The position numbers and the translations under genes were made by a program. The notes under the pieces were generated by a model, which saw only the letters and a list, made by a program, of their open reading frames with translations, was not told the origin of the DNA and searched no databases. Shown in pieces: positions 8,819 to 57,895 of a DNA stretch of 64,000 bases. How positions within the stretch are numbered: the stretch's first letter is position 1; every line of letters starts with the position of its first letter. Source of the stretch: Isoetes taiwanensis (Eukaryota > Streptophyta > Lycopodiopsida > Isoetales > Isoetaceae); the NCBI GenBank assembly GCA_021234155.1, contig JAJEKV010000085.1, positions 2,862,706-2,926,705 of the forward strand, given 5' to 3'.

Positions 8819-10946
8819 ATGCAAGGATCCCTTCGCCGCGCTCTCCAGGTGAATAATAATTTTTTATTTTGCTACCCGCTAATGGATTTTTGACATACCC
8901 CCATGCTTGCTGTTAGTCTATTTTTCCTTCAAATTCGCATGAAAGGGCCATAATCAGGTGATCAAAACTTTGATTCAGAACCAACATGTTTTCTTCATTA
9001 AGACTTGGTTGATATCATCCAATCATTTTGGCAGATTGCGTGAGGAGAAAGGAGTTTCTTTAACCAGAAATACGATTTATTCACTTCTTCAGGCCGGTAA
9101 AGGAATTGAGGATGTCGAGTATGTCAGGCAGGTGCAGTCTCTTATGGCTCAAAGTAGTCTAGATTCGACTACAGTTTTGGGTAACCATCTTATTCGGTTA
9201 TTTGCTCAGCATGGCTGCCTGATTGAAGCAAATCAAATACTAAGCAACATTAAAATACCAAGTAAACAGACATGGGCTGCAATTATTTTAGCCAATGCAA
9301 AGATGGGACAACCGCATTTTGCTCTTGAATTATACCAGAATATGCAACAATCTTATGTTTGTAATGAGTATATCTATGTGGCTACGATCAAAGCTTGCAC
9401 AGTAATAGAAGGACTTATGCATGGGAGGCTGATCCATCTCCATACATTTGAAACCATACAGAAACCACATACTGTTCTAAGCAATAGCCTGATTGACATG
9501 TACGCGAAATCTGGAAGTCTCGACGAGGCAATAACTGAGTTTGAGTGTTTGCTTAATCCAGATATTGTGTCATGGAATGCTATGATCATGGCATATTCAC
9601 AATACGACTGTGGTCCTCTTGCTCTTGGCTGTTTTAAGAAGATGCAAGAAGAGAGAGTAAAGCCAAACGCGGTTACATTTTTGGGCCTGCTAAAAGCGTG
9701 TACCGACTTGAAGTCCATAGCTCATGGCATATTTATACATAATCAAATAGTTGCATTCGGACTTCCGGATGTAATTGTTGGAAGCTCCCTGGTTGATATG
9801 TATGCCAAGTGTGGCGACCTTGGAAATGCATGCAATGTATTCTATAGGCTACAAAGCAAGACAGTTGTATCATGGAACGTGTTACTTGCTGGATATGCAC
9901 AACAAGGGAACAACATTGTCCCGCTCGAGTGTTTCTGCAGGATGCAACAGCAAGGAATAAAGCCAAATGAAACCACATTTTTTGTCCTATTGAAAACATG
10001 TTCAAGCATAGGTGCTGTAGAAGAAGGAAGGCTTGTTCATGAGAAAGTACTCAAAAGTGGATTTCTGTTGCATCTTTCTGTGGCTAACAGCTTAATAGAT
10101 ATGTATGCTAAATGTGGAAAGTTAAAGGAAGCATATGGAGTCCTCGAAAAGCTTCCAGATCGCGATGTGGTATCCTGGAATGCATTAATTGTACCTTTTC
10201 AACACGATCATGCTCTTTTAGTCCTAGACTGGTATGAGAAAATGCAGCAGGACAGTCTAAATCCAGACCAAATTACACTTGCAAGTCTTTTAAAAGCATG
10301 CGCTAGCATAGGAGCGGTAGAGAGGGGAAGGATGATTCATGATCTTATTATGAGAAGAGGGTTTTATTTAGAAGCTATTACAGGGAGTGCTGTAGTTGAT
10401 ATGTATGCAAAATGTGGAAGTCTAGATGAAGCACACAGAGTATTTAAGCAACTTCCAAAGTGTAATGTGGTTTGTTGGGGTGCAATGATAGCAGCGTATG
10501 CACAACATGGTAATGGAACACTTGCGGTAGAGTATTTTGAGAAGATGGAACGAGAAGGAATAAAACCAAATGAAGTTTTATTCACTAGTATTCTCATCGC
10601 ATGCAATCATGCTGGTCTAGTAGCTGAAGGGCGCATGTACTTTAGGTGTATGAGTAATCAGTATGGAATTTCACCAAATGCCGTTCATTGCAGTTGCATG
10701 ATTGATATGTTGGGTCATGTTGGATATCTTAATGAGGCTGAACATTTACTTAGGGCACACATTGAAGCTGATGTTATGGGATGGACATCTTTGCTCAGTG
10801 CAAGCAGATTGCATGGGGATCTGGAGATGGCAAAGCGCTGCTTCATGCAAGTTCTTAGTTTGGACTCGTGCTGCACTGCAGGGTACGTGCTCATGTCCAG
10901 TGCCCGGGCTCATGCCAACATTGGCAACAAGATGGCCGGCGGCTAG
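8819..10946 (+). CDS. PLS-class pentatricopeptide repeat protein (two exons)
   Basis: This is a sequence-specific organellar RNA-binding protein of the PPR family. The long frame from 8958 to 10946 has no ATG before its residue 63. However, an intron with GT (8849) and AG (8957) joins it in phase to a ten-codon exon at 8819-8848, giving an N-terminus MQGSLRRALQ, Arg-rich as in plastid or mitochondrial targeting peptides. The 672-residue product carries consecutive P, L and S repeats. MYAKCGSLDEA-like S-type motifs recur near residues 191, 291, 392 and 492, VSWNA motifs lie between them, and KPN..TF starts P-type repeats. An E-like region (GWTSLLSASRLHGD) closes the protein, which then stops without the usual E+ or DYW tail. 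PPR proteins of this type act in RNA editing, splicing or stability. The family is certain; the target RNA is unknown. Confidence 0.93.
8849..8957 (+). other. Intron in the PPR gene
   Basis: The 109-bp interval starts GTGAATAATAATTTTT and ends CCATAATCAG. Removing it fuses the ten codons at 8819-8848 in frame to GTGATCAAAACT. The stop TGA at 8940-8942 and the absence of an upstream ATG in the long frame make this splice the simplest gene model. Confidence 0.75.
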
Positions 10947-15259: not shown

Positions 15260-16400
15260 GCGTGAAAGATTCCCCTAAATTTCTGAAGATTAGCTCAAGG
15301 TTCCTTTAGATTCTGCAACATTCTATGTAGATTCTCCTAGATTCTCACAGATTCTACGAAGATTACTCTAGATTTTGCAAGATTCTATCAAGATTCCTCT
15401 CGATTCACAAAGATTTCCCTACATTTTCTAAGATTCTCATGAGATTCCCCTAGGTTTTTAAAGATTATCTCAAGAGTCCTCTAGATTTTCCAAGATTCCA
15501 TGTAGTTTCTCTTAGATTTCCCAAGATTCTATAAAGATTCTCTTAGAATCCCTAAGATTCTCTAAGATCCTATGAAGATTCCCCTAGATTCCTCTAGGTT
15601 CTTAAAGATTTTATCAAGATTCCCTTAGATTCCCTTTCATTCTCAAAGATTCTCTCTTGAACCGTGTAGATTCTCTTAGATTTTCCAAGATTCTATAAAG
15701 ATTCCCCTAGAATACCTAAGATTCTCTTGAGATTCCTCTAGATTCTCTAAGATCCTATGAAGATTCCCCTACATTTTCCAAAATTGCACCAAGATTCTCG
15801 TAGGTACCCTTAGATTTCCTCCTAGATTCCTTAAGATTCTACAAAGATTCCCCTAGATTCTTAAGATTCTATGGAGATTCCCCTAGATTTTATTAAGATT
15901 CCCTTAGATTCTCCGGGATTCTATCTAAGTTCCCATATTCTCCTAGATTTCCATAGGAGAATCTAAGGAAATTGTACTATGGACTATATGACGTCGACCA
16001 TGCAAAATACACTAGTGTAGAAGATTTCCCTAGATTGTCCCAGGATTCACCTAAATTCCCCATGATTCTATGTAGGTGTTCTTGGATTCCCTTAGATTAT
16101 ATGAAGATTCCTTTAGGTTATCCAAGGTTTTATCAAGATTTCGCCAGTTTCCTAAAGATTTTATGAAGATTCTTGGGATTCCTTTAGATCTGAAGACCCC
16201 CTTATGTCTCCAACATTCCATCAAGATTCCCACGTAATCTCAAAGATTCCACCGAGATTGTCCTAGATTCTCAAAAATTCTCTCACGATTTGGATAGATT
16301 TTCCAAGATGATATGTAAATTTTCCTAGATTCTCTAGGATCCTATTAAGATTCTTAGATATTCTATGAAGATTCCCTAGATTAACTAACATTTTCTTTCA
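15260..16400. repeat. Degenerate AGATTC-rich minisatellite, about 1.1 kb
   Basis: Nearly every 10 to 16 bases the sequence returns to AGATTC or a close variant, in a loose higher-order unit resembling AAGATTCCCCTAGATTCT followed by CTAAGATTCTATG (about 30 bp). Copies have drifted strongly, so the array is old or assembled from heterogeneous units. All occurrences point the same way on the plus strand. GAAGATTC recurs at several places (near 15570, 15756, 16098, 16163 and 16364). Short frames inside are artefacts of the repeat. Confidence 0.9.
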
Positions 16401-17609: not shown

Positions 17610-18430
17610 CATTGACAAAATAAAACAAATTGTAAACAAAAGACGGACATTAGAGACAATTAAAATAGCTGTAAACTCAAGTTGCACTACTGCATACTTC
17701 CTAGTTGAGCACTTCAAGAAAATCCACATGGACAGATGAAGTGAATACTCAGGATTCCATCATCCATTCAGGTGTATTAGCTCATCCATTCAGGTGTATT
17801 GGAAGATAACTAACAGATTTACATTCTCCATCATTAAGCATTATATACAGATTGGATCCATAGCTTCAGCCTTCAAAACCTTACTATCTCCAATGCTGCA
17901 GAAACCAGACTGAGAGCAAGAAATATAAAGACGAGGGAGCTTGAGTGACCCAAGTGACTAATACTTGCTAATTGAAGACTAATTGATCCAAACCTTGTGT
18001 TCTTACCATTTGACCTGCATCCAAACAAATTAAAAACCAATCAGTGAATTATTTGGAAAGCAGACAGAACATTAACGAAGGTTTCCAGTTTAGGGAGTGA
18101 CACAAATTCGAGCCGCAACAATTCTTGCCGACTAAATATTAGACAAATCAATACAGTGGGAATTAGGAAAAAGAAAAACCTTTGGTTACTGGAGTGTTCA
18201 CCATTTTCTATCATCCAGCTTGCAGCCTGATAGTACAACAGGGAACAGATTAAAGCCACAGCCACATTTTAAACAGCTTTTGAAACAGAACGGATATGCC
18301 ATAAATAGATCTTAGAAAGCTTTGCGTAGGAGTAGTAGGACTAAGTTCCTGACGAATTAAAGCCATAGCCCAATTGTACGAATTTTGAAACAGAACCGAT
18401 ACATTTTTAAAGATTTGCGCAGAGAACACG
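17610..18430. other. Flank between the dehydrogenase relic and the transposon
   Basis: No recognised coding sequence. A short direct duplication CATCCATTCAGGTGTATT occurs at about 17761 and 17784. If the dehydrogenase gene was ever complete its upstream exons should lie here, but I could not read any. Confidence 0.5.
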
Positions 18431-18440
18431 ATTGCAAATT

Positions 18441-18495
18441 AAACGGGAGTGTTGCATCACTCCCGTTTCAAAGATTCCCTTTAAAAAAATACCAT
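18441..18495 (+). repeat. Left terminal inverted repeat of the transposon
   Basis: AAACGGGAGTG, six bases, then CACTCCCGTTT form a perfect 11-bp hairpin at the very end, followed by CAAAGATTCCCTTTAAAA. The right end repeats AAACGGGAG and CAAAGATTCC in inverted orientation. Confidence 0.7.
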
Positions 18496-20233
18496 GTTTC
18501 TAAAATAAGCCTTTTTTGATAGTTGTTGAGAATTTATGGAGGTTCGCATTTTTTTCAATGCCATTTTGGCCCATCATTAGACGAAAACTTTGTACTTATG
18601 AAATAGAAATCATAAAAATAGCGAAATTTAGGCATAGACTTGAAGAGACTGAAAGCATTACAAAAAAAAGCACCAGAATAGAAAGGAAAAAAAAGTATTA
18701 TGTTTTTAATAAATTGTTGTACATCAATATTGAAGATTCATTGTAATAAATAATGATACTTTTTTTATATGCGATAGTCAAAGATCTACATCATAGTCCT
18801 CCTCATTCTTTTTCTTTGCTCTCTCTAGGCTCGTCCTTCGTTTCTATCTGCTCCTTTCTTTGGAGACTTAAGTTTTGTATCCTCCTTGTTCTAGGAATGG
18901 TAGCTAAAGCTACTTCTTTAAGCTCTGCAAAGGTTGCCTCGTCGTCTAGTGAGCTCGAGAATGGAGAATTTTGTATCTCTCGAGGGCGTTAGTTTAGCAT
19001 AATCGGATGAAGACTTGGCCCCTAACTCTTGATTTTCATCGGTAAAGTAGGTAAGGCAACCCGGTCTCATCTTCACAAAATGCAACCTCCTTATCAATAT
19101 CCACGGCTACACGGTTGCGGCCCTTCTTAAGTGCGCATGCGATAGTAGTACGAGAACCGGAGAAAGCATCAAGCACCCAATCTCACGGGGCGAGAACATG
19201 TCCGGGAGATGGTTGATGAGCTTTTGTGGTTTACGGTAGTGATTCACAATCCTGCCTTGTGCACTTGGGTCCCGCAATTTACGTAAAGAGGCGCTGGAAA
19301 CTCTAGGGCGTTTGAAAAGTTTTGATGGGCGGTGTTAAAGTGTTCCATGGTCCTCTTCCCATCAAAACTCCAATAAGCTACATGAAGGTACTCTACCTTG
19401 CTGAGCAACCTTGGTCCTCCACCATGGTAGTTGATGTTCGTTTTGTACCTAGTGAAGCATTTAAAGTGATGTTAGCAAAAACAAGAAAACACTTGAAAAC
19501 CCGAAGCTTGAGGGGAAATACTATTAGGAATACACACCACGTAATTAAAGAGAAAAGTAATTGTATTCGGAATAAGACTTTACCGACAAAGGTTTTCATA
19601 TCCCGCTTTGAACTGGAGAACCAAAGTGATTTTTGAAAGCTGATTCCACCAAGCGGTGCATGCTCGAATGGAGCGTAACTAAACGCCAATGTTTGGCCGT
19701 TGAGATCTGCTTGATTCCTTCAATGAAAGCATTAAACTCTGAAAATTTGAAGGGCTGGTCGTCGTATCTGCTGTCTTTAAGCTTAAACCCGTAGGGAAGA
19801 TCAGCAATAACCAAAGTAAAGTCCTGTGGCTTAACCGTTCCGACAAGGTTCGTGCAATCACCATGAATGATTGAATATAAATTGTTTTGATCAAACATGC
19901 GAGAATCTCGTAGTCGGATGGTTCTGGCTCAACAGTTCTTCTTTCAGCTAACGACCTCTCTTCCCGTGCTGTTCTAACCAAATTCATAAAGCCCTCGGGT
20001 AGGTCTTTATTTTTCTTTTTGCTCTAAAGAAAAACAAAACAACAACTGTCAAGAGATCGTTTGTGCAGAGAAAAGGAATTCTAAGAGTAATTACCCAGCC
20101 CTCAAAATTTGGTGAATATTGCACAATGCGCTCGTCGGATGTGGTAATTGGGTAGAGTTCCTTGCACCTTTCCCATGTGTCGACGTTTAGCTGCTCCATC
20201 AAACATGTTTGACATGTTATGACGTTCTTTTGG

Positions 20234-20685
20234 CTGCAAGACGTTAAGGAAACAATGAGTTTAAACGAAAGAATGAAGGCAACGTAAAAGAAAAACAAAT
20301 AAAAGTCAAGCTATTTGTATTCTGGAATACTCGAAACAATATGCAGAAAATAGTTCTGCTACAGGACAAACACATTGCTTGTCTCTAGAAAAGCAATGTG
20401 TATTCCGGAATACAGATTGCTTCTCTAAAGGAACGCATGCGTATTCCAGAATACACAGGCCAACATTCAGAGGAGCAATGTGTATTCCGGAATACACATG
20501 CCTTCCTTCACACAGGCAATGTGTATTCCGGAATACACAATGCCTTTCTAGAGACAAGCAATGTGTATTCCGGAATATACATTTCCCGTGTAAAGGAAGG
20601 CATGTGTATTCTAGAATACACTAGCTACGCCGATGTTTTTGGGAATCTAACATGCAAAGACTAATGTTTGTGTCAGAGAACTTAC
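20234..20685 (-). other. Intron of the methyltransferase-like gene holding a palindrome array
   Basis: On the minus strand the donor AAGTAAGTT (GT at 20684-20685) and the acceptor CTTGCAG (AG at 20234-20235) join ELHN to QKNVITCQTC in phase. Seven palindromes occupy 20315-20621 inside this intron, so splicing would remove them all. Confidence 0.65.
20315..20621. repeat. Array of seven GTGTATTCCGGAATACAC palindromes
   Basis: Copies start at about 20315 (TTGTATTCTGGAATAC), 20398, 20439, 20480, 20521, 20563 and 20604. Four keep the central TTCCGGAA exactly, and variants change the centre to CTGG, CAGG or CTAG while keeping the GTGTATTC and GAATACAC arms. Spacing is near 41 bp for most neighbours (20398, 20439, 20480, 20521, 20563, 20604), about four turns of B-DNA. 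Linkers share words such as GCAATG and AAAGGAA but are not identical. Confidence 0.92.
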
Positions 20686-22577
20686 TTGTGCAATTCCTTT
20701 GACATTTCTTCTAGGCTAAACTCCTTATCAACAACTTTTTGGAGAAGCTGCTCGAGAAGCTCCGTGTCGGAGAAGCCCTGCATTTCCTTGAGACGGTAAT
20801 GGTCATTTCTTTTTTTTTGTAAATGCGCGTCGAGTTTTTTTTTCTTAGGCTGTCTCCTTTCCCTTGCTCTTTAACTCCCTATTTCGAACATTGTAAATAT
20901 CGGTCACGGGTTCCCAAATCTGTTCAAGAAGATTCACGTTAAATAGTTGATTTGCTATTACGGAATACATTTTGTGCTTACCTTGCCATCTCTAAAAGCT
21001 ATTTTGGAACCGGTTGTGCGTGGCCAATGAGAGGCGCCTTTTGTTGGCCCGTCATATTTCAAAAGACATTCAATGGCACACGCCTCCTTAAGCTCCAAGG
21101 AAAAGCGGCTTCTTCAGGTCCTCACCGTACTTTTCCTTGAAAATTACATTACTCCACATTGCATGAACAGGATCTTGTCGTGAAGCTCATCTTTAGTTTA
21201 TATTCGATTTGTCGGTTAAGCTTCTTCATCGGTAAGACCACGATGAAGCGGCCTGAGAGAGGGCGGAGAGGTACCTCGGGTTCTTCTTCTCTTTATAAAG
21301 TTGCCTTCTTGCCTTAAAATTTTGTGATTGCCTCCCAAGGCGTAGTGAGTGTAGGTCTGCGTTTTTCTGTCATCATAGTCACGGGGGTTTTGCCTTTTGC
21401 TCCCACATCCAACAAGGACAACTATTGGGGCCACATGAGCATTTGGATTGCTCCTTATTACATCTTTTAGGTTCCTTAAGTGATCGGCATAAATTTTGCG
21501 AACACGAAGTGGCCTTTCACCGGCTTCATTTTTTGATTGGAAGCTTCATTGAAGTGGCCCGGCAAATAAATGACACCTTGCACAAACTTGTGCAAGTTAA
21601 TCTCTTCCATCTTTTCATTTGTTTTGTCAACTTTTTTTTTCCTTAATAGCAACACGGGTGCTTTACCCTTCCCCTTCTTCTTCTTAGGTTCCTCGGAAAT
21701 ATCCTCTGCTTTGCAATTAAAGCCGTACTTTTTTTTAGGCTCTTTAGCGAGAATCTGTTTCCTTTGCTTCTTTGGTGGTGGTGGCGGTGGCCTTTCATCG
21801 GTTGTGATGGACTCCCAAATTGTGATGATGCCTTCGCCGGGCTCGGTTGGTCATCCTCTTCCCCTTGTGATGACTCATTTGTAGGGGAAGTCTTCGCTCG
21901 TTATGTGCTTGAGCGTAGTTGATGATGGCGCAGAGGCGACCTCTTCTTGAGGTAGTGAGAAACATACTTATATAGAGGATGAGGATTTACTTTCACCACT
22001 CTAAAATATGATTCATCAACATGAATAAAGCCTTGGGATGTCCGAAAAAGGCAGTCTCCCTCACGACCAGGACTCCCGGCTACTTCACTCACGGCCTGGA
22101 TGGTGCCCATGCAGACAAATTCCCTCTCATCGTACCTTTTTGCTCCAGCACTCCGACAGACATGTAGGAAAGTAAGTGTGCTGTACTTTCCAGAAGTACC
22201 CCTTGTAAAAAACCATTGAGTTTGAAAGTTTTTAGTAGATAGATAGCGGTGAGATGTCTCCTCAACCCTTCTCTGTGGGTGCGGTTTCGTTGGGATTTTA
22301 ACGGTCCTCTTGTGTTGTTTCTTGCTGCCTTCTTGTCTGTGCAAATTGTGTGTAAACACGATCTTGTTAGAGAAAGCAGTGGCAAAAAACTATTCCAGAA
22401 TACAAAATGTCTTGCGAAAAGGAAAAAACAAGGGCAAAAAAAGGACAAAAATGCCAAAACAACACTGCAATCTTGACAAAAAAACAGGTCTAAACAAGTT
22501 TTAGAAGCAGAAAAAATGCCTAAAGTTACTACAAAAATCACGGAAAAGTAACCTTACAAAACATAAGAACACGAAAG

Positions 22578-22766
22578 TGTATTCCGGAACACACTTTCGC
22601 CTTTGAGGGATCGCCTTTCCTCGAAGGCGTAAGTGTATTCCGGAATACACTTACCCCTTTCCTCGAAGGCGTAAGTGTATTAGGAATATCGTCGCCTTCC
22701 CTCTCGGCGAAAGTGTATTCGGAATACACTTTAAGCCGAAGGGAAGGCGACGTGTATTCCGGAATA
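22578..22766. repeat. Second palindrome array between the divergent genes
   Basis: GTGTATTCCGGAACACAC (22578), GTGTATTCCGGAATACAC (22633), GTGTATTAGGAATATC (22674), GTGTATTCGGAATACAC (22713) and GTGTATTCCGGAATAAG (22752) follow at intervals of about 40 to 55 bp. Linkers contain inverted CGAAGGCG / CGCCTTTCG words. Further half sites (GGAATAC) occur up to about 23090. The array lies between the first readable part of the methyltransferase-like gene and the ATG of the transposase at 23155, where a shared promoter would be. Confidence 0.88.
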
Positions 22767-23154
22767 AGAAACAGACACACAAATGATTGTACCTTGTACT
22801 TTCTTACTCACCTCTCCATGTTTTCTCTATGAGTATCGGAATACAGCTCTGAATATTATAATCGAAGGCGCTGGCGCTGGCGACTTCAGCTCAGAGACTG
22901 GAATACGCAACTGAAGGCGCCAAAATTTCCTTTTAAAGGTGTCCATTCCGTCTTGCTCGTTTTCTATGTGAAGTGGAATACGTTTGGCCTTCTTTGTTAC
23001 GCTCTAGTGTATTCGGGAATAGCTTTTAGTTTGCCTTTCGCTTAATTGTTGCAGGAACTTCTACTTGTAGTAGGCGGGCTTGTATTCTGGAATAAGAAAA
23101 GCTCTGCAGTAGAGAAACATTATCTAAACTCTACACTGTTTTGCAGTTCTTAAG

Positions 23155-26100
23155 ATGACAAACCGCTTCGTCAACAAACTTCCACCACCTTTCGTTGTCT
23201 CAAGCTCGTCTAGTTCTGAGGACACACTCGGGACCAACGTCGTTTCTTCTGAAGACCGGTTTTCTCCGACTCCTACCTCTACTTCATCGTTCTTGCTTCT
23301 TGAAAAGACACCGAGTCCAGCACGTAACAGACTTCCACCACCCTTCCAACCGTCACCAAGTTCAGTAGACTTGCCACTGGGATCTCCTTCCAAAGCATCA
23401 CCACCCGGTTCGGACATTTGCCACCACCCTTCGTTCCATCCCCGGACCTCTGAAGCTCCACAACAAAGGGTGCTCAAGAACAAGCTACCCCGCCTTTTTG
23501 TAGTTTAGCCTCCTTCGTGCAAACATACAAGGAACACGAGAAAACACTGTAAGGCTGTGAGATTCACTACAATTTCTCTCACCAGGACTTCACTACAAAT
23601 GAAGACGAAGCTCCAGCATGCACTCCTCTTCACACAACAACGGTTGTGACACATGGATACAAGAACAACTGATGCCACAACCTCTTATGGGCCATCACCA
23701 CCCTTTAACACTGTACCCCCGCCTATTCCGGGAACAACTTCACGTGGTCTGTTTTCCTCTACAAGCACACCACTTTCGGAATGAGGAAGTCACCCCCAGA
23801 GTAGAAGTTTCATCAGAAGATGAAGACACCAACGAGGAACAAAGAGATTACATGTTCTCCAGCCAATCTTCAAAGAAATTCAAGGTGGATTTTGGTTTGA
23901 GGGCTTGCTCCTCTGTAAGAAGAAGAAATCTTATGGATGAACAGAAAATGAGGAGACTTTTGAGAACTAAATGCTGCTCATTGGGTTGCATCAACAGATT
24001 TAACATGTCCAAATTACGAGCAGTTAGAGACAACTACAGTTCCATGACATTGGCAGACCAGAATGCCTACTTAGCTTATCATGTAAGACCAGACCGCAAC
24101 ACCTTCTTGCACTACATTAACCGTCAAGAAGTTTGCCAGAAATGTTTTATGGTTGTCCACCGTTTAGGGTCCACAAGAATGTCTAGAATACACAAAAGAC
24201 TGGACAAAAATCCAGCAATCGATGATCATTGTGGACCAAGAAGAGTTGTAACCATGCATGCCCTTGCTGCTGTGTCATGGATGGAGAAATATTTTAGAGA
24301 AACATGTGAGAAGCTACCTAACAGCAACATGTATCATTTAACTGATAACATCACCAAAAAAGATGTTTTTAATGAGTACAAAGAGACTTGCACTTTCGGC
24401 CAAAGACATCTCTTACTCACACTTCACCAGACTGTGGAAAAGTGAATTCGGTCTTGTGAAAATTCCTAGAAAACATAGAATGTCTGTTTGCTCGAGGTGT
24501 GCAGAATTAAAGAGTCAACGAGAAACTGCAAAGACAGAGGTCGAAAGAAGTAAGTTCATGTTCTCCAATCTCTCACTTGTTTCAGAGAAAATGCTTTGAC
24601 CTGATTTCTTCTACAGATATTGTGCAACAGAACCTTGCCAGACATCGTGAACAACAAGCAAGAGAGAGAGAAGAAAGCTTGCCAAGCATAAAAAAAGCTC
24701 TTGAACGTCCCACCGCAATACATGTCATTTGTGATTGATGGAATGGACAAAAAAAAACAACTCTACCACATTTCTTGAACATTCCTAAAGATGTGGAGGA
24801 ATGTTTTGTTAAGGTCCACCTTGTAGGAGCTATGGTCTTCAAAGGAAGTCTAAGGTGCAAAGTATTTTTGACGTATCCAAACTTGCATGGTGACCCGAAC
24901 CTCACAATTACAATTCTTAACAAGGTCCCTGCGGGCGAGCAAGAGCAATTACCACCGGTTGCTTTTATCACGCAACTTGACAATACTACAAGGGAGAACA
25001 AGAATCAAACACTCTTTGCGTCTTTGTGCCATGTTAGTGGAGCTAGGGATCTTTAGAAAAGTGAAGCTCGGTTTCTTACTTGTAGGCCACACTCATGATC
25101 AGATTGACCAAATGTTCGCCAGATTTTAAAGTGCGCTTTAGAAGGAAGAAGGCTTTCGTCTTCCTTCTTTAGTTCGAATTATTGAAGATTCTTACACTCC
25201 TACTCCAAATTGGTCGCATCTTCTTAAAGAGATTTTGCTGATTTCAGAGAGTTTGTTTTTCTCAACGTTCAAACAGAGAACAAGTCGTGAACAAGTTGAA
25301 TGATCTCACCTTTCAACATCATATCAAGTTCTACTTGAAGGATGGCCAAAGCTTCTTCAGGGAAGAAGTATACCACAACTAAGGATTTGGAGTCCGCCCG
25401 AGGGATTACGCTTCCTTAAATATATTCCAGACACTTCCTTCATAGAACGTCTTTGAGCAACTTCCTCTCAAAAATCCTAAGGAGTCCAAGCGAGAAGAAA
25501 AAGTACCAAAAGCCATTGAAAATGGAATTTCCTCGGAGCTTTAAGTACTTCTTAGAAGAAGATGGGATGTGGTGGAGTAATTTCTTTTCTAAGCAGAAAA
25601 TTGTTGTACAAAATATAGCTCTAAGACAGTTGCAAGAACCATTTCAATGGCCTAACACCTTCCATCAACCCCAAAGCACCAAGCGAGGTCCAAGCGGTGC
25701 TACATTTGCACCTGATGATAGAAGACGAGAGGAGGACCGAGTCATGTACCTCGGACCAAGACGCAGGAATGAGCCCCAAGGTAATATCACGAAATTACCA
25801 AAGGTATGCTAATTGCTCTTCCGACCGAGGAGGATGACAAAGGTCGGCGGATTACGGATAGCAAAAGTGCTTGACCACGGTCAAGGAGGAAGGCTTAGTC
25901 ACTAAACTCAAGATTCATTGGCTTGCAACATTTCGAGAAAATGCTTTTGAAGGTAGATATGAGTTAGAAATGAGAAGCCAAGGAAAAGGGAGAAAGTCCA
26001 AGAAGGTGGGTTGTAGGGACGAAGTGAACCTTAATGGCGTGACTATATTGTGCTATGATTTTAAATTGAAATCGACAATCGTCACGCCTTTTAAGACTAT

Positions 26101-26221
26101 CAATTTGCTTAAAAAAGCTTGTAATTACGAAGAAGATGATGAAGAAGGTGGTGACAATGCTTCACCGTGCGTTGATAGTGATGAGGAAGATAACTCAAGC
26201 ACTTCCTCGGAAAGTGATTGA
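23155..26221 (+). pseudogene. DUF7869-type putative transposase, copy A (frameshifted)
   Basis: From the ATG at 23155 a Ser/Pro-rich region repeats the phrase (K/R)LPPPF. The frame 23618-24445 follows, with Cys pairs (KCCSLGC, CQKCF) that suggest a zinc-binding N-terminus. Core blocks are then spread over frames. WKSEFGLVKIP leads to a CSRC pair near 24490. FVIDGMDQ appears after a one-base shift at about 24745, LDNTTRENKNQ lies near 24975, and GHTHDQIDQMF near 25087. These D...LDN...HTH..D blocks match the conserved core of copy B (55367-57895) and of DUF7869 proteins, in which I infer an RNase-H-like DDE/D active site. LPSLVRIIEDSYTPTP downstream matches copy B's FPRLMKILHEYTTPNP. The C-terminus (25871-26221) ends in an acidic, Ser-rich tail. 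Several stops and shifts make it inactive as written. Confidence 0.7.
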
Positions 26222-26479
26222 AAGAAGTGAAGGTGATGACGATGGCATAAATGAACATGAAGACGCCCCGGATCCCTCTCTCATCACTCCTCACACTTTT
26301 GCACATAAGCGAAGTCTTAGAAAAAGATCAGAATTTTGATGTGAATATGAAGATTCTATCTTCAAATTTTGAGAATACTACAGTTTCAATTACAGACTTA
26401 CTTCAATTTTTTGTTAAATATTTTATCCTCTGAAATTAGAGTTTCTCTCTTAAAACATACTTTAAGAACATTCTTTTTG

Positions 26480-26610
26480 CTAAGAAAAGTGACACTTTAA
26501 AAAAGTCAATTCCTTCGTTGCAAAAAAAAATTAGTCATTTCGGGGGGGGTCAAAATAGAATTTCATGCATCTTTTTTTTTTTTAACCTCATTTTACCCCC
26601 TTTTTTGTAA
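26480..26610. other. Homopolymer-rich 3' end of the transposon
   Basis: Runs of G, T and A (GGGGGGGG near 26540, T-runs and A-runs to about 26622) separate the transposase tail from the right terminal repeat. No coding content. Confidence 0.6.
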
Positions 26611-26611
26611 A

Positions 26612-26676
26612 AAAAAAAAAAAGGAATCTTTGAGGAATATTCCTTTTGCTCTCGTTTCAATGATTTGCTCCCGTTT
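26612..26676 (-). repeat. Right terminal inverted repeat of the transposon
   Basis: On the minus strand this reads AAACGGGAGCAAATC, then GAAACGAGAGC, a second imperfect copy of the terminal motif, then CAAAGATTCC and a T-run. It matches the left end at the terminus and at the subterminal box. Confidence 0.7.
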
Positions 26677-26705
26677 AATACGCAACTTTGTTAGAGGTAG
26701 GAATA

Positions 26706-39578: not shown

Positions 39579-40862
39579 CTAAAGATGGTCTCCCCGGATC
39601 CTGTGAGCAAGAGCTAAGTCTTTGGTCATAATTGTGACCCTCTTTGCGTGGATAGCGCAAAGGTTCGCATCATCGAAAAGAGCTATCAAATAGGCCTCAG
39701 CAGCCTCCTGGAGTGCCAAAATAGCAAAAGTCTGGAAGCGGAGGTCGGTCTTGAACTGTTGGGCGATCTCACTGACCAACCTCTAGAAAGGCAGCTTCCT
39801 CAATAACAACTCCGTGGTCTTTTGGTATTTACGGATCTCCCGTAAGGCCACGGTGCCCGGTCTAAAGCGGTGGGATTTTCTTGAAGTAGCCGCTCTCTGA
39901 GTCAGGGCTGGCTTCTTGGGCAAAGTCTTACCTGCAGAAACTGGGTGGGACCGTGCTGCATCCACTCGTCCTTGTCGGCGACTCGAACTCGTGTGTTTCC
40001 CTATGCTCCCGACAGCCTTGAGCTTCTCCTTATACTGGCTCCTGGACTTACGAGCCGTGGACTTCCGCCGTCTCTTAATGGGCGGCTTGTCCGCTTGGTC
40101 GGGCTCGCACGGGATCGAGTTGGGCTGTTGCTGCTGCTGCTGCCAATCCTGGTTTTGTTGTTGCTCTTGCCGCTCTTTCTGCTGTTGCTCCTGCTGGTCT
40201 CTCTCAGGCTGTTCCTGAGCCTCACGGGCTGCAGCCATATCTGCCTCCATCTGCGCAAGACGTCGGGCCGCAACCCGTCGGAGCAGTTCCATGTGGTAGC
40301 GGTCTGGCCGGGCTCGCATATCCAACTGGATTGTTATCAAGTAATCCAGATTGATATGAGATGGGACCTCACCCCACATGAAGCTCTGCGTAGCCTCATC
40401 ATACTCATATGGGGGAAGGTCAAAGGGTTCACAGTTGATGATGGCTCTCCCGTCACCTAAGTAGACATACTCACGGCCTCTAGCTGTGGTGTCTCCCCTT
40501 TCTATTTCTCTGATGTCATCTTCTCGGGCCAGTCCTCTAATGCAGGCCGCCCCCCTCCGGATGGCCTCCTCTTCAGGGACTTCTTCACACTCAGGTGGGT
40601 AGAACTTGACCAGCATCATTACCTGGTCGGGTTGCTCGACCATAGTATATGCCTGTCGTTGGAGGTTAAGCTTGATCAAGAAGCGCTCAGAGAGATGGAA
40701 AATGGGATAGGGTATCCTAAGGCCATCACTGAAACGTTGCACCAACTCATTTAAGAGGAGCTCGACCATGTTAGAGTCGGTAGCCAAGTGCTCCCCAAGC
40801 AGGGAATAAATCTGAGGCACCGTGAAGTTGGCGGGGCTCAAGGTGCCGTTGGTACAGGCCAT
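39579..40862 (-). pseudogene. Histone H3 fused to a large unknown N-terminal region, amber at H3 Gln68
   Basis: From the ATG at 40862 the frame runs to TAG at 39783-39785 and continues in frame to TAG at 39579. Residues 1 to about 230 are an unknown region ([52 protein letters not shown]). A Gln/Glu-rich stretch follows (40250-40100), then a basic tail-like segment with TARKS and [16 protein letters not shown]. The last 100 or so residues are a full histone H3 fold. [17 protein letters not shown] is the alphaN helix, [11 protein letters not shown] starts alpha1, and then the stop replaces Gln68. The same frame goes on with [38 protein letters not shown] and [11 protein letters not shown]. Loop 1 has canonical H3 length, unlike centromeric H3. 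H3 is one of the most conserved proteins, so the missing Gln is unambiguous. No chromatin function can be claimed for a broken copy. Confidence 0.85.
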
Positions 40863-40869
40863 AGACACA

Positions 40870-41490
40870 GGTGCTGAATGGAAGGAAGGCGGGAAATGAG
40901 GCGCTAAGGGTTGGTGATGGCAAGGACGCAAGCAGAGGCGGGGTTTACGAGCTCGAGTTTCGGCGGCTATAGCGGACGGCTAGGGTAGGCGGGTGGGAGG
41001 CGCAGACGAAAAAAAAGAAACGTCTCTTTACTTTTAAGTTTTAAATTTTTTTGAAACTTTTTTGTTAATTATTTTTATACGGCAGAAATATGTGTGCGTA
41101 TACGGTCGGGCGCCGGTCTGGTTATACGTCCTCCTATTTCGATTCTAAAATGCCCAAACTTGAGCGGCGCCTGAGTTGGGTTTTGGGCCACCTCATCGAC
41201 CTGCTGTTGCCGGATGACGACTCCTCTAGGGTATTTGGATCACACCCGATGCATTGGAGCAAAAATCTCGTCGATCCGAGCTACCTGGAGAAAGTTATGG
41301 CGCTTAGAAAACCCCAACCTCTAGCTCCACTTTCTGACCGTAATCATTCCATTAGAGAATACTCCCCTACTCACTAGGTCATTCCTCGCATAACTAGGCC
41401 AACTAACATGCTAACTACGGAGTTTGACTACTTTAACCTAGGAGAAAGTACCGTCAACTAATGAGTTAGACTATGGCCAGTGCGATGACC
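40870..41490. other. Upstream region of the H3 fusion
   Basis: GC-rich just above the ATG, then AT-rich from 41030. A plus-strand frame at 41090-41374 shows no domain I know. The minus-strand LTR primer site lies at 41499, so this may be the internal leader of a retrotransposon. Confidence 0.35.
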
Positions 41491-55366: not shown

Positions 55367-57895
55367 GTGCAACATATTGAAAAGAGCAATTTCAATGAAA
55401 AAGCACCTCCTAGCAAGAATGTTGAAGAAAAACAATTAGTCCTCCATAGTAGGGTGCAATGGAGGAACAAGAAGGTGAGAATCATGCACAAGTGCAACAA
55501 GGAAATAGTAGGCCAAGGAGTAATTGTGCTAGCAGATCCTGGTCAAGCTGTTAATGATGAAAGGCTAGGGGAAGACAATATTGGTATTGCAATTTCTTTG
55601 TTGGAAGACAACTGGAAAGGCAAAGGTTTGGGTGACAAGGAATATTTTGGTTGTGTCAAGCAATTGGAGGTTCCTTGCATCATGGCATGGCCTATAAGTA
55701 GTGTTCAATTTGTGGAGGATTATATTTTTCCAGAGCCTGAGGTTGTTGGGGACAATGATTGTCTTGATATTGATCCATTGACAGTTGGAACTCTAAACCT
55801 AGGCAAAAGGGGAGAAGTATCAGTTGCCAGACATTATCCTAGCAAAAGAACCAAGTTGATTAGTGACACCAAACATGAGACAATGGTGAAGGTTAGGGGC
55901 TCAGATTGTTGGGAGTGATTGTATGCAATTCTTTACAATAGAACAATTGGTGGAAGCAAGAGCCACTTTTCAAGAGTATACTGTTGATGAGAGGAGGACC
56001 TACATGTACACACTCTTTGAGCATGCACTTCAGGATGAAAGAAACCCAAACAGAAACCCTTTGCTAGGCAAATGGATATATAAAAAAGCATGGCAGAATA
56101 TCCATGCAATTCCAACTTCTTCATGGCATAATTGGCAAAAAAAATAGGCAGAGGGGAACATGATTGCTTTACATGGAAATAATGGTTTGTTGAGACCAAC
56201 AGCTAGGATCTTGGCTGCCAGGGAGATATTTGAAAAATATATTAATTTCAATGCAGAGTCTATGCCACACAAAAGCAGAAGGGATGAAAAGGGAAGAGCA
56301 GTTGTTGAGAAAAGGTTACCATCGCATTGTACTCAAAAGAGTATTTTGGAAGAAGTGAATTCCCTACTTCGAGAATTGGGAATTATTCCAATATCCCAGC
56401 CTAGCTTTAGTAGGCTATGGAAGAAGCATTTCAATCATGTCACCATAGCAACTTCAAACAACTTTGCAAAGTGCAATTTATGTGCTAAGTTGAAGGAGAC
56501 TCTTGATAAGACTGTGCAACCTAGTCAAAGGGGAATAAGGGAGCATATGAAGGACCATATGACTGATCAACTATCATGTAGATCATGTTATTGGAAGTGG
56601 AGGACTTTATCTGCATTGGAACCTAATAACTATTTATGTATTATACATGACAAGATGGACCAGCAAAAGACTTGTCTTCCACAATTCAAGTACATGTCTA
56701 GTGAACATGTTGGAGCTTCAACTTCACGTGCTAGAGCTCAAGATCTACCCAAAAGATCCCTCTTGCAACTTGATAATTGTGCTGGCCAAAATAAGAACAG
56801 GTGGATGTTTTCTTTCCTATCCTACTTAACAGCTGTGGGGATATTTGAAAGAGTTAATTTAGGGTTTCTTATGCCCGAGCATACCCATGAGGATGTGGAT
56901 GCATTATTTGGCAAATATAGTTGTATACTGAAGCAGCAGACAGTGACCAACTTTCCTAGGCTAATGAAAATCTTGCATGAATACACTACTCCAAACCCTA
57001 TAGCTTCTCTCATAGAAGAAGTGCCCGATTGGAAGAGCTTTATGGATGGTTATACATTGGATCTTGAAGGTCATTCCAGACGTCTGCAGTTCACTTTTTG
57101 GGTGAGAGATGGGACTCCAATCTTCCAATGGAAGATGAGACCTTCAGAGGAGGAGTGGAGGGGAGGGGAGGAAATATGGCATAAAGATGAGAATGGCAAG
57201 CCTATGATACCTCCAGGTCAACCAAAAGCTCTAAAACCTACTAAAGAAGTGAAGCAATTGGGATTGACTAAGGAAGGAATCCAGGACTATATAAAGCATT
57301 GGCAAACCAATTCCGATGACTGGTGGCTTACTGGAAGAAGGTGATTAACTTGTTGGGGGAGATAGACACATCCTCAGATGAATTGAAAGAAGGGTGGTTG
57401 CCTAAAACTAGGTGGAAGACCTTAGCAGGTGCTGAGGATGTTGATGACACTGTTAGTAGCATTCGTAAGCAATATGCTCCTCTTCCTTCCGACAAACACT
57501 ATGTTGGTCCTAAGAACAATAGATCATAAGGCATGGATGCTTATGAACCTTCCACTGACTTGGAATGCCACCAATTTGTGGTAGTAAAGCCAGCAGATTT
57601 AGATACATATCCAATGTGGCTGGGGTTCACCATCTCTGATATTTGCAAAGAAGAAGGTAATATTAACTTCAACCATGTGCGGGTAGAATGCTGGTGTCCA
57701 ATGCATCAGTTGACCAACATATCGGATAAAGAAAGGTACTCAGATTGTTGGACAAAGAGATGGAGGAGAAATCCGAGTGATCCTGATCTTTGGCTAGACT
57801 ATGAAAGTGTTTTGTACTCATGCTCTCCAAACACTATTCCAGCTATAGGTTCAGGATGTCAGGAAGAAGGCTATGATATCATTGGGGGTGCTTGA
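55367..57895 (+). pseudogene. DUF7869-type putative transposase, copy B (nearly intact)
   Basis: Four successive open frames form one protein of about 840 residues. 55367-55918 has a small beta-rich region (KCNKEIVGQGVIVLADPG, PCIMAWPISSVQF) like the DUF8039 domain in plant element proteins. The frame from 55923 continues through one TAG at 56145-56147 to 57341. It carries CNLCAKL and CRSCYWKW zinc-type pairs, then HDKMDQQKTCLPQF (about 56647), LQLDNCAGQNKN (about 56764) and PEHTHEDVDALF (about 56874). By analogy with other RNase-H-fold transposases, the Asp residues of these three blocks are my candidates for a DDD/E triad. A shift at about 57330 and a TAA at 57527 precede the last part (FVVVKPADLDTYPMWLGF, VECWCPMH), resembling a BAH- or chromo-like end. 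With only two stops and one or two shifts it is younger than copy A. No terminal repeats were found. Confidence 0.75.

Follow-up and report, generated by a model that had tools for sequence, protein, structure and literature searches.

Genes and features at the locus

A 64,000-nucleotide stretch of the Isoetes taiwanensis genome (contig JAJEKV010000085.1, positions 2,862,706 to 2,926,705; hereafter the window) contains, at 18425-26692, an element of ~8.3 kb with terminal inverted repeats (TIRs), a 4-bp target-site duplication and two divergent genes, one encoding a DNA methyltransferase (MTase) and the other a transposase with DUF7869 blocks. An earlier note on this DNA had described such a unit, and in the main its description held. 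The copy in the window is decayed: each of its two genes has introns and is interrupted by frame breaks and stops. The earlier note mentioned neither these nor the palindrome arrays described below. On the grounds of structure and selection set out below, it is almost certainly one copy of a large family of DNA transposons characterized by these TIRs, a 4-bp duplication, both genes and an MTase under selection. The ends and genes of the window copy are as follows.

18421-18424: left target-site duplication, AGAG, equal to the right one
18425-18449, plus strand: left TIR, AACACGATTGCAAATTAAACGGGAG, pairing with the right TIR (80% complementary), with similar outward sequence in other copies
18443-18466, plus strand: left-end hairpin, ACGGGAGTG-TTGCAT-CACTCCCGT, followed by CAAAGATTCC at 18469-18478
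19060-22389, minus strand: MTase gene with several exons, decayed, from open reading frames (ORFs), motifs and a profile match (exon limits inferred)
19132-19179, minus strand: motif I, WVLDAFSGSRTTIACA, from the translation (DAFSGSGTT in copies L029 and L046)
19785-19805, minus strand: motif IV, ADLPYGF, from the translation
~20023-19590 and ~19450-19062, minus strand: MTase exons (inferred limits)
~21545-20981, minus strand: ParB-resembling exon, by eye (inferred limits)
22389-21901, minus strand: N-terminal domain of the MTase protein, common to the window and L029
23128-26339, plus strand: DUF7869 transposase gene, decayed, with an intron at ~24551-24617, from ORFs, profile and tblastn (limits inferred)
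24739-25129, plus strand: DUF7869 core in two overlapping frames (PF25273, E 1.5e-13 and 1.2e-14)
26623-26632, minus strand: right CAAAGATTCC box, from a sequence search
26668-26692, minus strand: right TIR, from inverted-repeat pairing and other copies
26693-26696: right target-site duplication, AGAG, equal to the left one

The ends recur across the genome with variable 4-bp duplications

The earlier note had placed the element at 18438..26679, between matching inverted ends (TTAAACGGGAG with an internal CAAAGATTCC box) and with TTAA outside. The inverted ends are present: the 11-mer TTAAACGGGAG occurs once forward (at 18439) and once inverted (ending at 26678), and nowhere else in the window. 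When the 2-kb flanks were simulated 4000 times with a Markov model, an inverted pair consisting of TTAA plus seven bases arose in 126 runs, and such a pair together with a common 10-mer within 70 bases arose in 1, the simulated features having been chosen after the end sequences had been inspected. The CAAAGATTCC box alone is weak evidence for an end because two further copies (at 15842 and 16241) lie inside an unrelated degenerate AAGATTCC tract, and the weight of the end evidence therefore falls on TTAAACGGGAG and on copies elsewhere in the genome. Degenerate repeats of a AAGATTCCCCTAGATT-like unit occupy 15500-16400 of the window and imitate the CAAAGATTCC end box.

Searching the 1.66-Gb host genome with the end pattern, as the earlier note had suggested, yielded 877 matches (444 forward and 433 reverse), compared with none for the reversed control. 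Because other copies share bases further out, we set the bounds from the bases common to them, which placed TTAA inside the TIR and the ends at 18425-26692, 13 bases beyond the original ones on either side. The family TIR is AACANRRTTGCRWATTAAACGGGAG, which is ~25 bp long, begins AACANRRTTGC and contains TTAA, and the left-end hairpin was found in the same or near form in most of the left ends listed from the genome search.

Among 30 elements or ends examined, 15 of 17 readable end pairs were flanked by exact 4-bp duplications. These came from two sets. The first comprised the window element and nine pairs picked from the listing for the closeness of their ends; nine of the ten were readable (L018 could not be parsed) and seven had exact duplications, including the AGAG of the window, with L023 matching at three of four bases and C430 at two of four. 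The second comprised 20 left-type ends with exact end matches, taken in listing order (skipping one earlier left end, C2, which had already been fetched); the right end was readable in eight, all with exact duplications. The duplicated 4-mers varied (ATAC, GTCA, AACT, GTAA, TAAA, GGTT, AGAG, GTAT, ATAT, CCAC, TACT, CAAA, CCTT, ATGA and CAAT). The originally proposed ends implied insertion specific for TTAA, as in piggyBac or Kolobok elements, both of which have TTAA target-site duplications (PMC9587614; here and below, statements about cited papers refer to the excerpts consulted). Such an element would agree with TTAA adjoining ACGGGAG at both window ends, but we reject it as extremely improbable, since copies share TTAA as part of the TIR and the duplications are variable 4-mers.

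Both genes travel together in most copies

Within 10 kb of the 20 listing-order left ends, both genes were found in the same divergent order in 13 cases (L029-L035, L037, L038 and L040-L043). Six others (L024, L025, L027, L028, L036 and L039) had MTase sequence (at least a 38-residue fragment, at most the greater part of the gene) but no transposase of their own, the transposase matches seen in L039 belonging to the overlapping L038. The last, L026, with an unparsed left TIR, had as its sole match 19 residues at a distance of 6.4 kb. Within the same 10-kb reach, none of the 20 was a transposase-only copy.

The nine close pairs comprised three spanning 8.4-10.4 kb (L022, L023 and C430) and six spanning ~3.3-4.3 kb (L014-L019). 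Eight of the nine had no transposase match: C430, L023 and all the short pairs except L018 matched MTase fragments only, L018 matched neither gene, and L022 alone matched both. Judged by their sequences, the short copies look like deletion derivatives, as is usual for non-autonomous copies. Between the window element and L022, the transposase half was 83% identical over 4 kb, whereas two long pieces of the MTase half were 66-67% identical, a gap that could reflect either module exchange or faster evolution of the MTase.

The earlier note had held that copies with only one of the two genes, or ends that did not recur as inverted pairs, would count against a single unit. The ends do recur in pairs, with duplications; one-gene copies exist in one form, MTase without transposase (the six of 20 and most close pairs described above), and none of the other form was seen among the copies examined. 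Recurring inverted ends, matching duplications, the pairing of the genes in 13 of 20 copies and selection on the MTase (see below) together bear out the proposal of one mobile unit carrying both genes. That the MTase is a captured or chance neighbor, the passenger of one copy, has a precedent in giant transposons, which often carry accessory genes without known function (PMC12477816), but its regular company with the transposase in listing-order copies and the strong purifying selection on it make this scarcely credible, and we reject a chance pairing on the same two grounds.

The accessory gene encodes a beta-class methyltransferase under purifying selection

The order of motif IV before motif I defines the beta class of DNA methyltransferases. 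In the minus-strand gene, ADLPYGF comes first and motif I WVLDAFSGSRTT follows (from 19179 down), as had been read from the letters alone. A stitched reading of the window gene scored 33.0 bits against PF01555 (gathering score, 26.7), with the match restricted to the motif I region. The MTase region of L046 scored 70.2 bits (E 3.3e-19), again on the motif I (C-terminal) side of the profile, and both L046 and L029 carry ADLPYGF before DAFSGSGTT within one copy. The divergent gene passes the PF25273 cut-off in two plus-strand ORFs.

Among solved structures, L046 was closest to CcrM (E 3.4e-10), in an alignment that spans both motifs. The next named relatives were MboIIA and RsrI, both N6-adenine enzymes, and these ranked ahead of N4-cytosine enzymes. 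Among the matches listed for phage DNA methyltransferases, alignments covered up to 96% of the L046 MTase region at ~21-26% identity (best E 6e-9). By these sequence criteria the element enzyme is a beta-class DNA methyltransferase, more likely an N6-adenine than an N4-cytosine enzyme. It resembles CcrM in its Pfam and PDB matches and in having motif IV ahead of motif I, and differs from it in being encoded by an intron-containing gene of a plant genome and in having a long N-terminal extension.

A protein search of the host genome with the MTase, which scored 72 of 5826 first-look candidates, gave 193 matches, and many of those listed had no stops. We fetched four copies picked for their open exons (L044-L047, the N-terminal exon lying outside the fetched parts) and used them, together with GT/AG boundaries, to infer exon limits. 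The ParB-resembling exon was open over 212 codons in all four, and L046 was also open through motif I, whereas the other three were interrupted before or at motif I. In pairwise Nei-Gojobori comparisons, the ratio of nonsynonymous to synonymous divergence (dN/dS) of the ParB-resembling exon was 0.02, 0.03, 0.04 and 0.08 in four of six pairs; in the other two, dS was saturated and dN was 0.05-0.06. For the MTase exon (110-112 codons, including motif IV), dN/dS was 0.15 in one pair, and the five others had saturated dS with dN of 0.09-0.14. Although picking open copies biases against stops, this choice does not itself produce saturated silent change beside little amino-acid change, and we take the pattern as a sign of strong purifying selection on the MTase.

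With the decayed, stitched window reading as query, which makes for a weak test, a search of 5.8 billion proteins returned no relative of the MTase at E 0.01 and none of the MTase region at E 10. Viral contigs gave no match to P0002, to the window MTase ORF or to an archaeal-virus MTase, and using the latter (annotated as partition-related) as a bridge profile yielded no link.

The N-terminal half of the protein begins with a domain that has the pattern TQWF.TRG..GKYSTLTFL... in the window and in L029, with no Pfam match in either. The exon that follows contains PIVVLVD...YVLGGNHS...GLTDEEA..VANTHN, which by eye resembles a ParB/Srx-type domain. Pfam returned only DUF6551 for it (0.012-0.02, below the cut-off), and NCBIfam, PDB and phage searches gave no support for ParB in the N-terminal half; the phage search found no phage relative of that half either. 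A plasmid and phage search with the ParB-resembling part gave insignificant matches only; three of these proteins had no ParB domain, and one was DUF7188, against which the window ORF scored an insignificant E of 0.21. A single-sequence fold prediction of this part (predicted local distance difference test score, 40) was uninformative. A ParB domain in the element MTase is thus unproven.

The partner gene encodes a DUF7869 transposase

With proteins P0001 and P0002 as tblastn queries, pieces of the transposase gene were 31-81% identical. In a predicted model the protein has an RNase H/DDE fold, with the three invariant acidic residues of a DDE/D enzyme. The top-ranked Foldseek match was the MID-PIWI domain of Argonaute (E 0.0012, with none at or below 0.001), and PIWI domains likewise have an RNase H fold. 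Searching PDB sequences with the DUF7869 profile gave only xylanases (E 0.9). A C-terminal BAH domain was suspected from Foldseek rows and from the source name of P0088, but Pfam showed none in six relatives. A protein search with DUF7869 gave 145 matches; among the 120 listed, the liverwort Riccia sorocarpa accounted for many, bivalves for some and the fern Adiantum for one named match. The open-access literature searched did not mention DUF7869.

A second, distinct DUF7869 ORF (398 residues, PF25273 E 1.4e-32, 24% identical to P0002) lies at 56148-57344 on the plus strand of the window. A window-wide search placed no TTAAACGGGAG near it; an MTase beside that ORF was not specifically searched for.

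Palindrome arrays lie in introns and between the genes

The window element contains 14 copies of the palindrome TGTATTCCGGAATACA with at most three mismatches, compared with 0.28 expected in the window. All 14 lie within 20316-23096 and outside the inferred exons. A motif scan placed them as follows.

20316-20620: seven palindromes with 0-2 mismatches, six at a spacing of 41-42 bp, within an inferred MTase intron
20954-20969: one palindrome with 3 mismatches, within another inferred MTase intron
22389-23096: six palindromes (0-3 mismatches) between the divergent genes

Across 15 two-gene copies (the 13 listing-order copies, L022 and the window), each with 3 to 18 palindromes, 132 of 134 sites fell within three zones: a 1.07-kb zone around the same MTase intron, a 1.4-kb zone between the genes and a 0.1-kb zone near 1.2 kb, the last being a further intron in the window copy. 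These zones, defined by position, take in some exon sequence; the two sites outside them were L029:1186 and L035:3241. In the short copies L014-L019, which have lost nearly all coding sequence, the left half still has 4-5 sites and the right half 1-7.

The consensus over 177 distinct sites was approximately AAAG-TGTATTCCGGAATACA-CTTT. Beyond the core, arm positions were complementary above shuffled controls at some positions (0.51 vs 0.28 at position 6) and near them at others (0.59 vs 0.57 at position 3). At 20370-20621 and 22575-22766, the palindromes sit within longer imperfect inverted repeats whose arms vary between sites and often stay complementary, as though the dyad symmetry were being maintained or restored in its own right. 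We consider it probable that the arrays are cis-sites of an element protein; that the MTase protein is their binder, for which it is a candidate, seems about an even chance.

Relation to known elements

The earlier note had called a transposon pairing such a methyltransferase with a transposase not a described group, which is too strong because a pairing of ParB-MTase and transposon is in print for the brown alga Ectocarpus (PMC12477816). Sola1-1_Ec32 is reported to carry, opposite its transposase, a gene whose protein combines a ParB-like with a DNA methyltransferase domain, and the same paper cites ParB-MTases in green and red algal transposons (Iyer 2011, Petroll 2025). Like the Isoetes element, Sola1-1_Ec32 is a DNA transposon in which an N4C/N6A-type MTase gene runs opposite to the transposase gene, but it is 21.5 kb long, has a named ParB domain (unconfirmed in Isoetes) and has a Sola1 transposase rather than DUF7869, a distinction made by description only. 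The Isoetes element differs further in its plant host, its palindrome arrays and its dN/dS measurements, the latter two unmentioned for Sola1-1_Ec32 in the excerpts consulted. Sola2 elements also have a 4-bp target-site duplication, which is AT-rich rather than of mixed composition as here (PMC3627910). That paper also reports methyltransferases in mariner elements, which likewise combine transposase and methyltransferase in one element; these elements are virus-borne, have Methyltransf_26 and C5-type enzymes, and encode a second protein of the endonuclease type.

Looser parallels include fungal DNA transposons with TET/JBP genes, which also carry a DNA-modifying enzyme, although a dioxygenase rather than a methyltransferase and with other transposase groups (PMC12730594). 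If the unconfirmed N-terminal half were ParB-like, fusions of a ParB-CTPase and an N6_N4 methyltransferase in phages and prophages (PMC12704722) would correspond to it among prokaryotes. The open-access literature searched (subscription papers being outside its scope) gave no land-plant precedent, and relative to it the plant host, the DUF7869 transposase, the palindrome arrays and the measure of MTase selection are new. The Isoetes family thus looks like a land-plant version of the algal MTase-carrying transposons.

A close parallel in arrangement is VANDAL21, in which VANC21 motif arrays lie in introns and intergenic regions (PMC5735166). Both systems have an element-encoded accessory gene and dense arrays of a short motif whose placement closely matches. 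VANC acts through loss of host methylation (PMC5735166), whereas in Isoetes the accessory gene encodes a DNA methyltransferase, and the Isoetes motif, unlike that of VANC, is palindromic. The likeness drawn here is one of arrangement.

What the methyltransferase might do

By analogy with VANC, we favor a reading in which the MTase, guided to the palindrome arrays, marks its own element against silencing, a reading that we hold with about as much belief as doubt. The MTase would be guided to the arrays, perhaps via its N-terminal half, and would methylate the element around the promoter of its own gene. Either this mark or the protein bound there would sustain expression and mobility in the face of host silencing, and would act in trans on short copies that retain arrays, as VANC does for VANDAL elements. 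That anti-silencing is the benefit conferred by the MTase is, on the same analogy, somewhat less than an even bet. The full chain, in which the element's own N6-adenine MTase reads arrays in introns and promoter, writes a non-host mark, thereby escapes silencing and aids array-bearing short copies in trans, we put forward only tentatively.

Alternatively, the arrays might be internal binding sites of the DUF7869 transposase, used to assemble the transposition complex, with the MTase serving another role, such as protection of excised DNA or adjustment of the transposase promoter. The short derivatives retain palindromes in both halves, as expected of cis sites needed for transposition, and the 41-42-bp spacing is regular, but two-gene copies have their arrays far from the ends, at depths of ~2 kb and 4-5 kb, unlike the usual subterminal sites, and we regard this alternative as unlikely, if still a serious one.

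A third possibility is replication-timed control, in which the MTase would methylate the ends or the promoter and the hemimethylated DNA left by replication would activate excision or the transposase. Dam methylation times IS10 and Tn5 in this way via replication, CcrM is the closest solved structure to the element's beta-class enzyme, and the divergent promoter has palindromic sites; no recognition motif was identified at the ends, however, and we think this quite improbable. In comparison, self-marking guided by the arrays remains the reading we favor.

Other features of the window

Two further ORFs were noted by eye. At 8943-10946 on the plus strand is a 667-residue open frame resembling a pentatricopeptide-repeat protein, and at 39783-40979 on the minus strand is a 398-residue ORF in which a histone H3-like C-terminal stretch of 28 residues follows a long unrelated N terminus.

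Significance

In our view, two questions stand open: whether plants use N6-methyladenine or N4-methylcytosine, and what DNA methyltransferases do for the transposons that carry them. This family brings together in one genome hundreds of exact ends, a selected MTase and a candidate target motif, with at least one copy in which the fetched MTase exons are open (L046) and with short derivatives that provide natural controls. It could therefore serve to test how a transposon marks its own DNA and, if the self-marking reading is true, would represent an enzymatic counterpart of VANC in a plant genome.

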